Assembly (NCBI RefSeq): GCF_000503895.1
Contig: NC_022997.1
Coordinates: 2,190,501-2,254,500, forward strand
Origin: Hyphomicrobium nitrativorans NL23
GTDB lineage: Bacteria; Pseudomonadota; Alphaproteobacteria; Rhizobiales; Hyphomicrobiaceae
Direction: 5' to 3'
Length of the DNA stretch: 64,000 nucleotides
A program made the position numbers and the translations under genes. Under the pieces are notes generated by a model. It worked only from the letters and a program-made list of their open reading frames with translations. It did no database searches and was not told the DNA's origin. How positions within the stretch are numbered: position 1 is the first letter of the stretch; every line of letters begins with the position of its first letter. This document shows positions 25,679-28,361 of the stretch, in pieces.

Positions 25679-25698
<20 letters not shown>

Positions 25699-27115
25699 GG
25701 TTGCGGGCGAGCGCCGCGGCTGCCGCGAGATCTTCGACGAAGGCGGCGTAGGCCTCGCGCTTCGCCGCCTCGTCGGGTACCCGGAGCAGATAGGACGGGT
25801 GCACGGTGACGAAACCGGCTCGACCGTTGAAGTCGAACGGACCGCGCGTCTTGATGATCGGCAGCGCCTTGCCGGTAAGCGCCTGCACGGCCGTTGCGCC
25901 GAGGGCGACGATAAGTTTCGGCGCGACGAGGTCGAGCTCCTTGTCGAGCCACCAGCGGTAGTGGCGGACCTCTCCCGCGGTCGGTGATTTGTGCAATCGG
26001 CGCTTCCCGCGCGGCTCGAACTTAAAGTGCTTGACCGCATTGGTGAGGTAGCAGGCGTCGCGGTCGATGCCCGCCTCCGCCATTGCGCGCGCCAAAATCT
26101 GTCCCGCCGGGCCGACGAACGGACGCCCCTGGACATCCTCCTGGTCTCCCGGCTGTTCGCCGACGAATGCCAGCGACGGCTTCAGCGGCCCCTCGCCAAG
26201 CACTGCGCGCGTGCCGCCTGTGACGAACGGCTCCGCAGCCGCAATCACGGCGTTGAGATCCGCGAGCGTCCGCACGTGGTCCTCGCGCATCCGCGCCACG
26301 GCTTTGGCCGGATCTTTCTTGCGGGAGGGGGCAGGGGCATTGCTCATGAGTGTCTCAACGCGCGAGCCGGCGGCGCGAAGCAGATCCGGGATCAAATTCG
26401 TCTCGGGCATGTTGGCCCAGTACTTTTTCGGCATCTCGCGCAGCATGGCCGAAGGGTTCGCCCGCGCCGGATTGAACGTGCTCGCGTAATAGGTGCTCCA
26501 CCCGGCTTCGACCGCGCCCGTCGCGGGCAGCGCGCTCTTCTCCCCGGGCGGCCCGACGGTCAGCGTTTCGCGGTCCCAATGCAGCGAGCCGGTCGGAGTC
26601 AGGATCGACCAGGTCATGCGGCGAAAGCGATCGACGAAAAAATCCGCGGTTTCCTCCAGGATGTCATGCTCGGGCTCGAACCACGCGACGTAGCGTTCGT
26701 CCTCGTCATCGGTCACGCGGCGGAAGCGCAGGAACGCGTGCATCTTGTGAAGATCGCGGCGCACCGATTTTTCCATGAGCGCGAGGCGCGCGACCAGGGG
26801 ATCGCTCGCAATGTCGAGCAGCGCGCCCTCGCCATGGAGAAGGCGCCAAACGCAAGCGTAGAGCAGCGCATACCGCTCCGGATCGCGATGACAAACGACG
26901 AGGCGGATGAGATCTGCGGCTGCGCGCGGCAGCGAGATCGGCGGCGCGTCGGCGCCAGCTTCGCCCCGATTGCCGTCGAACAGCGATGGCGTGCCATCCG
27001 TTTGCCAGACGACCGCGTCGGGCGGCCTCGCCTCCGCGATGAGACGGCGCACGGCCCGGCGGAATCCGTCCAAATCGGCGCCCTCTCCGAGCGTGACAGG
27101 CGTAACTCCCATCAC
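25679..27115 (-). CDS. DUF4130-UdgX fusion: uracil-DNA glycosylase-type DNA repair protein
   Basis: A 478-residue two-domain protein. Residues 1 to about 255 are DUF4130 (LIRLVVCHRDPERYALLYAC, KMHAFLRFRRV, ETADFFVDRFRRMTWSILTP, MPKKYWANMPE), a domain tied to the radical SAM partner. Residues about 290-470 are a family 4/UdgX-like uracil-DNA glycosylase: FVGEQPGDQEDVQGRPFVGP, YLTNAVKHFKFEPRGKRRLH then KSP, and VTVHPSYLLR. The KRRLHKSP loop carries the histidine that in UdgX attacks the deoxyribose and leaves a covalent DNA adduct. The ATG overlaps the stop of the radical SAM gene by 4 nt, so the two are translationally coupled. The 3' end overlaps ettA by 20 nt. Confidence 0.93.
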
Positions 27116-28314
27116 AAGAGGCTTAGTTGCTTTGGCGGCGCAACGCGTGCACGGAGATCCGCGCGGTCGGTCAACGCACCGGGACGATGGTCGAGCGTGA
27201 TCAGAAACGGTGCTGCCCGGCGAAACGAAACCGTCAAGCGCGCGACATCGGCCGCGCGAAGCGTCGTATGCCGCCGCGCGGCGACGATCTTGTCCACCGC
27301 CCGCGCGCCGAGCCCGGGCACGCGCAGCAGCATCTCCTTGGGTGCGGTATTCACATCGATTGGAAACGCGCCGCGGTTCTTCAGCGCCCAGGCGAGCTTG
27401 GGATCGATATCGAGATCGAGCATGTTGTCCGCACTCGTGGACGCGATCTCATCGACGGAAAATGCGTAGTGCCGGAGCAGCCAGTCCGCTTGATAGAGCC
27501 GATGCTCGCGCGCGAGCGGCGGCGGCTTCGGCGGCAGGAGCCCGCTTGCATGATCGATGGGGCTGAACGCAGAGTAGTAGACACGGTTTAGCTTGAAGCG
27601 CCGGTACAGGCCGTCGCTCGCCGTCAGAATGTCGGTGTCCGTTGCCGCATCTGCGCCGACGATGACCTGCGTGCTCTGGCCTGCCGGGGAGAAGCGCCGC
27701 CGTTCCGCGCGCGCTTCGGTGATGCGCGCGTGCATGTGCCCCATCGCCTCGCGGATCGTCGTGTCGCTCTTTTCCGGCGCGAGGCGGGAGAGGCCCGCCG
27801 CGGTCGGAAGTTCGAGATTGATGGACAGCCGGTCCGCCCACAGCCCCGCCTGCTCGATCAGCCAGGGGCTCGCTTCGGGGATGGTCTTGAGGTGGATGTA
27901 GCCGGCGAAGCCATGCTCGCGCCGCAGCGTCTTCGCCACGCGCATGAGCTGTTCCATCGTGTGGTCCGCCGAGCGGACGATGCCGGAGGAGAGGAACAGG
28001 CCTTCGATCATGTTGCGCTTGTAGAACCCGAGCGTGAGCGCCACGACCTCGTCCACCGTGAAGCGGGCGCGGGGCACGTTCGATGAGCGCCGGTTGATGC
28101 AATAGGCGCAGTCGAACAGGCAGTAGTTCGTGAGCAGGATCTTGAGCAGCGAGACGCAACGCCCGTCCGGCGTATAGGCGTGGCAGATCCCGGCGCCGGT
28201 GGTCGAGCCGAGCCCGTCCGCCGCGGCCTTGCGCTTCGGCGCCCCGGAGGAGGCGCAGGAAGCGTCGTACTTTGCGGCGTCGGCGAGAACGGCAAGCTTA
28301 TCGAGAATCTCCAT
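27112..28314 (-). CDS. Putative DNA modification/repair radical SAM protein (SplB-like)
   Basis: A 400-residue radical SAM enzyme. The [4Fe-4S] cluster motif CLFDCAYC (CxxxCxxC) sits near residue 65 after LLKILLTNY; SAM-domain strands follow (IEGLFLSSGIVRSADHTMEQ, GYIHLKTIPEAS, LSINLELPT). The C-terminus has a helix-hairpin-helix DNA-binding motif, DVNTAPKEMLLRVPGLGARA. The family always travels with DUF4130 and is predicted to act on DNA lesions; its reaction is unknown. I chose the second ATG, at 28314, because GGAGGT ends 4 nt before it; the ATG at 28326 lacks this. A LexA-like box overlaps the promoter, so SOS induction is expected. Confidence 0.93.
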   Translation of the reverse strand: MEILDKLAVLADAAKYDASCASSGAPKRKAAADGLGSTTGAGICHAYTPDGRCVSLLKILLTNYCLFDCAYCINRRSSNVPRARFTVDEVVALTLGFYKRNMIEGLFLSSGIVRSADHTMEQLMRVAKTLRREHGFAGYIHLKTIPEASPWLIEQAGLWADRLSINLELPTAAGLSRLAPEKSDTTIREAMGHMHARITEARAERRRFSPAGQSTQVIVGADAATDTDILTASDGLYRRFKLNRVYYSAFSPIDHASGLLPPKPPPLAREHRLYQADWLLRHYAFSVDEIASTSADNMLDLDIDPKLAWALKNRGAFPIDVNTAPKEMLLRVPGLGARAVDKIVAARRHTTLRAADVARLTVSFRRAAPFLITLDHRPGALTDRADLRARVAPPKQLSLL

Positions 28315-28329
28315 GGATACCTCCATGAT

Positions 28330-28361
28330 GTTCGCTATATGTTCTTACGTAAAAACGTCAA
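28330..28361 (-). promoter_or_regulatory. Sigma-70 promoter overlapped by a LexA (SOS) box
   Basis: GTTC at 28330-28333, seven bases, then GTTC at 28341-28344 (GAAC-N7-GAAC on the gene strand) is the alphaproteobacterial LexA operator pattern. On the leftward strand a -35 TTGACG (28361-28356) and a -10 TATAGC (28339-28334) are 16 nt apart, and the operator covers the -10. The radical SAM start is 16 nt past the operator. A repressor here would block this promoter. The upstream EamA gene ends at 28372, so the operon has its own promoter. Confidence 0.85.

Follow-up and report, generated by a model that had tools for sequence, protein, structure and literature searches.

Control by the SOS response of a two-gene uracil-DNA glycosylase (UDG) system, COG1573-COG4277, has been reported in Verrucomicrobia and Alphaproteobacteria and predicted in Bacteroidetes, according to the part of PMC8565304 available to us, and the accessible portion of PMC3765255 notes DUF4130 together with SplB-like radical S-adenosylmethionine (SAM) proteins and UDGs. 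The present study concerns an operon of this type in Hyphomicrobium nitrativorans NL23, located on the minus strand (28361 to 25679) of a 64-kb window, that is, the whole stretch of DNA analysed, to which the coordinates refer. Direct reading gives the order promoter, radical SAM gene and DUF4130-UDG fusion gene. We take COG1573 and COG4277 to be the UDG and radical SAM families found here, COG4277 presumably being the TIGR03916-type radical SAM protein, and we know of no reaction for the radical SAM-DUF4130-UdgX system. Our reading, to which we give a probability of about 60%, is that the operon encodes an SOS-induced, clamp-tethered pair of proteins that would process DNA lesions. By a slight balance of the odds, two distinct SOS-induced radical SAM families may be clients of the beta sliding clamp, radical chemistry being sent to the clamp for lesions at stalled forks, with the window's clade also having a UdgX domain that would lack its iron-sulfur (Fe-S) cluster. 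Going by the available text of the earlier report, SOS control of the operon is supported but not new; the predicted clamp docking and Fe-S loss are new as far as our literature searches show. No paper among the literature searched contained the clamp motif, the loss of Fe-S cysteines or DUF4130 as a constant partner, and no link between radical SAM proteins and the sliding clamp or a clamp-binding motif was found, judging from titles and the beginnings of abstracts.

The first-pass annotation had placed a LexA operator over the -10 element of this promoter, and all of its elements, including the 16-nt spacer, can be read directly in the sequence:

28330..28344, minus strand: LexA operator GAAC-N7-GAAC (GTTC-N7-GTTC on the plus strand), gene-strand sequence GAACATATAGCGAAC
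28334..28339, minus strand: putative -10 element TATAGC, within the operator, 16 nt after the -35 element
28356..28361, minus strand: putative -35 element TTGACG, by direct reading

The motif alone says little, because its counts are near chance: the exact pattern occurs once in the window (shuffle mean 1.99) and 106 times in the whole genome, where the reversed pattern has 75 matches. The claim is borne by position and conservation. TIGR03916 genes were gathered from the family (11 of 103 genomes), the order (96 of 397 above the cut-off), the class (25 of 385) and the phylum (84 of 398, with the alphaproteobacterial matches of this search limited to its 30 loci), together with 26 loci of a named collection and further added stretches, and about 220 nt before each gene were searched. 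The set of 160 loci used below comprises the window's class and the named alphaproteobacteria, the window being counted once; for the other classes of the phylum, 21 of the 29 matches above the cut-off were examined. Omitted were L068 (identical to the window), L122-L126 (without match) and G459, G401 and G321 (broken or partial), and L121, which is short, stands outside the protein counts. Two pairs may represent genomes counted twice, since L041 resembles L062, and L032 and L034 come from one strain.

An exact GAAC-N7-GAAC or GTTC-N7-GTTC repeat precedes the radical SAM gene in 153 of the 160 loci. Control spacings of 3-6 and 8-12 gave 0-5 of 160, seven control words 0-4, and searches inside the gene none (0/160). 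At the equivalent position within the operator, TATAGT or TATCAT is found in 25 of 134 orthologous operators, and TTGAC occurs in the 30 nt preceding 29 of the 134 operators in GAAC orientation, at varying distances, where shuffles lead one to expect 3.3. In the other classes of the phylum, none of the 21 loci examined has the GAAC/GTTC-N7 operator before the gene. Fifteen of them have an exact CTGT-N8-ACAG in a similar place, as against 0 of 160 alphaproteobacterial loci. CTGT-N8-ACAG is the E. coli-type LexA box; as it replaces GAAC/GTTC-N7, the operon has kept a LexA-type box even though the type of box differs between classes. Among Verrucomicrobia loci, GAAC-N7-GAAC was present in two of six, at -86. 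In the genome of NL23 itself, the sole lexA match is preceded, at a distance of about 0.27 kb, by a repeat of the GAAC/GTTC-N7 type. Genomic sites were also ranked with a matrix derived from the operators of the orthologues, that of the window excluded (100 listed of 106 sites, to which all ranks refer): the window's operator came third, an imuA-like gene (49.9 bits, below the NCBIfam cut-off of 150) fourth and ssb eighth. Taken together, these comparisons make it almost certain that the operon is under LexA control, and the SOS control proposed by the first-pass annotation is strongly supported; loss of the operator from relatives that keep the operon, which would have spoken against it, is not the pattern seen.

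Other LexA-like sites were noticed in the same genome. One lies 24 nt before a DNA cytosine methyltransferase gene, another shortly before an adenosylcobalamin-dependent ribonucleotide reductase gene and a third farther upstream of a CcrM-like methyltransferase gene (L227, L229 and L237). At C1:176470-176531 (L236, L006), two LexA-like repeats on opposite strands are packed into 62 nt, and the gene that follows encodes a 120-aa protein with no NCBIfam match at E up to 1e-10.

At its C-terminus, the radical SAM protein has a short peptide that resembles known ligands of the clamp:

27115..27129, minus strand: C-terminal beta-clamp-binding motif QLSLL, residues 400-404, immediately before the stop codon (tail ...APPKQLSLL)

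The clamp-binding consensus is given as QL[S/D]LF, or more broadly QxxLF, in the part of PMC12309361 consulted, where the C-terminus of PolC is QLSLF; ImuB requires the clamp motif QLPLWG, according to the available text of PMC10421592. Using a pattern looser than the consensus (Q[LMIG].[LMF][FLWYIM] or Q[LMI].[LMF].[LF]), we found a match in the last 25 residues of 177 of 186 homologs; 300 rounds of shuffling these tails gave 6.2 matches on average and never more than 15. Under the strict form QL[SDE]LF, 74 of the 186 match (shuffled mean 0.05), and the same motif words appear elsewhere in the protein in 19. All but three of the 177 motifs lie at most 6 residues from the end (174; alphaproteobacteria 154/159, other classes 19/21, Verrucomicrobia 1/6), 125 being exactly terminal, and in the window's clade the motif is present in all 48 radical SAM proteins. 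In an alignment not anchored on the motif, the glutamine column (Q400) is at least 97% conserved. Residues 398-404 have a predicted local distance difference test (pLDDT) score below 50 in the AlphaFold2 model. Judged by pattern and model disorder only, the tail thus offers a conserved QxxLF-type motif in an accessible place, as a clamp client should, and we think it likely that the radical SAM protein docks on the beta sliding clamp. A corresponding motif in the partner protein was considered and rejected, the words occurring in 3 of 185 homologs and not in the window's protein. Ten loci (L080, L086-L089, L091, L092, L094, L097 and L151) are atypical, combining a GTTC-oriented operator about 100 nt upstream with a QLGFGF tail.

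A second radical SAM family, PA0069 (NF033668), which we take to be COG1533 or SplB-like, shows the same combination. The site ranked first by the operator matrix precedes a gene of this family. Of 68 matches above the cut-off, 30 loci were examined and 29 located; a C-terminal clamp-type motif and a LexA-type operator were each found in 26 of these 29. The locus outside the 29 (L249) has an operator site; its tail, QFRLL, falls outside the pattern. In 31 PA0069 stretches of about 4 kb there was no match to DUF4130. The copy in the genome of NL23 (L224, C1:1351997-1353040, minus strand), which is the gene beside that first-ranked site, has the tail QMTLL. At C1:1354081-1354640, about 1 kb away from the LexA-like site of this gene, a second UDG-like match is present in two pieces; it scores below the TIGR03914 cut-off.

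Several observations weigh against our reading of the operon. As to its control, seven of the 160 loci are without an exact operator (six are one-letter misses; L102 has none), six of the 21 other-class loci lack an exact CTGT-N8-ACAG, the operon-derived matrix places the site of lexA itself no higher than 34th, and its second-ranked site precedes an L,D-transpeptidase-like gene, not an obvious SOS gene. As to the tail, clamp motifs are short and our pattern was written after the tails had been seen; the last residue of the window's protein is L and not F, as in some other homologs that end in QLSLL; and among six Verrucomicrobia homologs one motif is terminal, two lie 17-18 residues inside and three proteins have none in the last 25 residues. 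The operon is also patchy, being present in 11 of 103 genomes of the family. Finally, UdgX motifs are absent in at least 22 loci that have a complete DUF4130 frame beside the radical SAM gene in the downstream sequence examined (L050, whose reference contains stops, was left out).

These last loci bear on the roles of the two domains in the partner protein, which is laid out as follows:

25679..27115, minus strand: DUF4130-UdgX fusion protein, 478 aa, GTG start
26402..26881, minus strand: DUF4130 domain, residues 79-238 (TIGR03915: 14-239), 128.6 bits with Pfam and 204.3 bits with TIGR03915
25721..26395, minus strand: UdgX domain, residues 241-465, with GEQPG (319-323), H363, KRRLH (371-375) and HPSYLLR (439-445)

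A DUF4130 or fusion match lies downstream on the same strand in 185 of 188 loci; of the other three, L053 and L121 have little or no downstream sequence and L073 has no match in 1800 nt. Across the loci compared, DUF4130 constantly accompanies the radical SAM protein and forms the core with it. UdgX is optional and dispensable for the core reaction, because the pair persists where UdgX motifs are missing. The division of labour suggested by the first-pass annotation, with a radical SAM enzyme altering the lesion and a covalently trapping UDG sensing it, stays hypothetical, and the missing UdgX motifs mean that UdgX cannot be an indispensable sensor across the family. A fold for DUF4130 could not be assigned: 49 of the 50 listed Foldseek rows (of 638, E up to 10), which come without ranges, carry UDG-superfamily names, and the remaining one is a phage polymerase with a phmmer match in the UDG region.

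The UdgX domain of the window's clade has a further peculiarity. The prototype, MsmUdgX, is a 4Fe-4S protein with a GEQPG motif A, a KRRIH R-loop containing the trap histidine, and an HPS motif (motif B consensus HPS(S/A)(L/V)(L/V)R), as described in the available part of PMC10359453. The window's protein has GEQPG, a KRRLH loop (I to L, as in 37 of 184 aligned homologs) and HPSYLLR, with Y in place of S/A, which is the commonest form (101 of 184 rows). It has no CxxC, Y386 stands at a cysteine position of MsmUdgX, and it has a counterpart to none of the three cysteines in the aligned MsmUdgX chain. Of the 185 downstream proteins, 154 can be classified: 105 have the CxxC together with the later cysteine, 49 (the window's and its duplicate L068 included) have neither, and no intermediates occur; the remaining 31 lack complete UdgX motifs. 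Where the cysteines are missing, the trap histidine, GEQPG and the histidine of VKH are retained, and tyrosine takes the place of the last cysteine in 48 rows. The radical SAM partners of the two groups show disjoint ranges of identity to that of the window (70.5-83.0% for those without the cysteines, 57.7-65.8% for those with them), and on a tree of 186 radical SAM proteins the cysteine state changes once, on a branch with a Shimodaira-Hasegawa-like approximate likelihood ratio (SH-aLRT) of 100 (quick method, no bootstrap). With the cluster-binding residues deduced from the alignment and absence of the cluster from absence of the cysteines, the UdgX domain of this clade very probably has no Fe-S cluster. 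Although the trap residues are kept, covalent trapping is therefore not to be assumed. Neither the clamp-type tail nor the loss of these cysteines figured in the first-pass annotation.

The remaining features of the operon are these:

27112..28314, minus strand: radical SAM protein, TIGR03916 family, 538.3 bits; the listed open reading frame begins at 28326, likely start 28314
28320..28324, minus strand: Shine-Dalgarno sequence GGAGG, aimed at the ATG at 28314
28156..28257, minus strand: stretch with extra invariant cysteines C24, C48 and C57 (186/186 homologs)
28099..28122, minus strand: radical SAM CX3CX2C motif CLFDCAYC, residues 69-76, its three cysteines kept in 186/186 homologs
27271..27360, minus strand: helix-hairpin-helix, residues 323-352, Pfam HHH_3

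Translation of the radical SAM gene probably starts at ATG 28314, residue 5 of the listed frame, because the GGAGG is well spaced from it and translation from 28326 would make the mRNA nearly leaderless; the TIGR03916 match begins at residue 7 of that frame. The gene pair was correctly described at first pass: the stop of the first gene and the start of the second overlap by 4 nt (27112-27115), and TIGR03916 (rSAM_link_UDG; 538.3 bits, curated cut-off 343.5), TIGR03915 (204.3 bits, cut-off 112.25) and TIGR03914 (UdgX; 282 bits, cut-off 189.95) are all exceeded, as is Pfam DUF4130 (128.6 bits against 27). The helix-hairpin-helix assigned to the radical SAM protein is matched by HHH_3 at 25.1 bits, slightly below the gathering score of 27; Pfam Radical_SAM likewise falls slightly short (24.3 bits, gathering score 29.5). 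Because they lie before the CX3CX2C motif in every homolog, C24, C48 and C57 may form an auxiliary (second) metal site. The closest named relatives, from Azospirillum and Methylobacterium, are 73-77% identical. The AlphaFold2 model of the protein, made from 26 sequences, has a mean pLDDT of 72.7, and Foldseek returned weak, general radical SAM matches, MiaB included (50 listed of 1189).

Plasmids also carry the radical SAM gene: it occurs in 158 plasmid records, among them 58 from Phaeobacter, 15 from Paracoccus and 11 from Azospirillum, and 142 of the 158 are typed as non-mobilizable. The patchy presence and the plasmid copies suggest gene gain and loss. A role in phage defence was rejected, as no PADLOC defence model was matched, and so was a phage origin, with one weak match to the radical SAM protein in PHROGs and ten phage-collection matches, all below 60% identity. 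Two relatives occur in viral contigs. In one of the ten phage-collection matches, a record labelled "Acinetobacter phage MD-2021a" (CAKLQH020000003.1, L269/H61), the gene pair lies beside glyS and glyQ, in what looks like bacterial chromosome.

A working model can be drawn from these features. LexA bound over the -10 element would occlude RNA polymerase, and its RecA-stimulated cleavage after damage would free the promoter. The radical SAM protein could then use QLSLL to dock on the sliding clamp where DNA is damaged or newly replicated or where replication has stalled. There, with DUF4130 as a necessary partner, the 5'-deoxyadenosyl radical would take a hydrogen from a damaged base, perhaps a pyrimidine. 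The UdgX domain might hold the complex at the lesion by excising or covalently capping a uracil-like base or the abasic site that results. This base-level chemistry is tentative, and we would put the chances of its being correct in detail at the lower end. That the system serves DNA repair rather than modification is fairly likely.

Other explanations account for parts of the evidence. That the operator is a chance match would agree with an expectation of about two matches per 64 kb, but its presence at a single spacing in 153 of 160 orthologous promoters leaves this practically no probability, and we reject it. More can be said for the idea that the QLSLL peptide docks another protein (e.g. 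DUF4130) or is a proteolysis tag instead of a clamp ligand, as low model confidence would suit any short linear motif; we nevertheless hold it improbable, given that the words match published clamp motifs and that a similar tail occurs in the PA0069 family, which docking on DUF4130 fails to explain since those stretches contain no DUF4130 match.

A uracil-DNA-glycosylase-based reading, as set out in the accessible part of PMC8565304, has the conserved pocket motifs of UdgX in its favour, but the loci that keep the radical SAM protein and a complete DUF4130 without UdgX motifs make the UDG the dispensable part, whereas the cysteines of the radical SAM protein are invariant, and we regard this reading as unlikely. 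Somewhat less probable again is that the radical SAM protein and DUF4130 modify DNA bases under stress, with UdgX recognising a by-product. Radical SAM proteins are known in nucleic-acid modification, MiaB is among the fold matches listed, and the NCBI name of TIGR03916, "putative DNA modification/repair radical SAM protein", allows both; two kinds of LexA-type box in different classes together with the clamp motif fit damage handling better, however, and the lack of a match among the PADLOC models speaks in the same direction. Lesion processing by an SOS-induced pair tethered to the clamp thus stays our preferred reading.

If true, the clamp tail would locate the site of action of these proteins, and mutation of five residues would separate docking from chemistry. 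It would also tie the operon to a second LexA-controlled radical SAM family. The clade with a UdgX domain apparently devoid of Fe-S provides natural proteins for testing the role of the cluster in a DNA glycosylase, without the need to remove it by mutation.

Among known systems, spore photoproduct lyase (SPL) is a radical SAM enzyme acting on DNA lesions and is in this respect like the window's protein, but likeness in sequence or fold did not emerge, with no SPL chain among three PDB sequence matches (E up to 1) or the 50 listed of 1189 Foldseek rows. MsmUdgX (PDB 6ail, 6iod and mutants) provides the best solved matches of the fusion protein among those listed, at 43-45% identity in the UDG domain, and shares the GEQPG, KRR-I/L-H and HPS motifs; the window's copy differs in being fused behind DUF4130, in lacking the three cysteines and in having HPSYLLR for HPSSLLR. 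The COG1573-COG4277 SOS operon of PMC8565304 (and its references 7 and 65) is the same two-gene system, reported or predicted to be SOS-controlled; it is framed there as uracil-DNA-glycosylase-based base-excision repair, with clamp docking and Fe-S loss unmentioned in the available text and the word DUF4130 absent from it. ImuB, the damage-inducible hub of the SOS mutasome, is recruited to the clamp by the short QLPLWG peptide (PMC10421592, as far as its accessible part goes), much as we propose for the radical SAM tail, the difference being that ImuB is a catalytically inactive polymerase and the protein here a radical SAM enzyme. The PA0069 family is separate and without a DUF4130 match in the 31 stretches, yet likewise joins a radical SAM protein to a LexA-type operator and a C-terminal clamp motif; NL23 carries one copy of its own, with a UDG-like match about 1 kb away.

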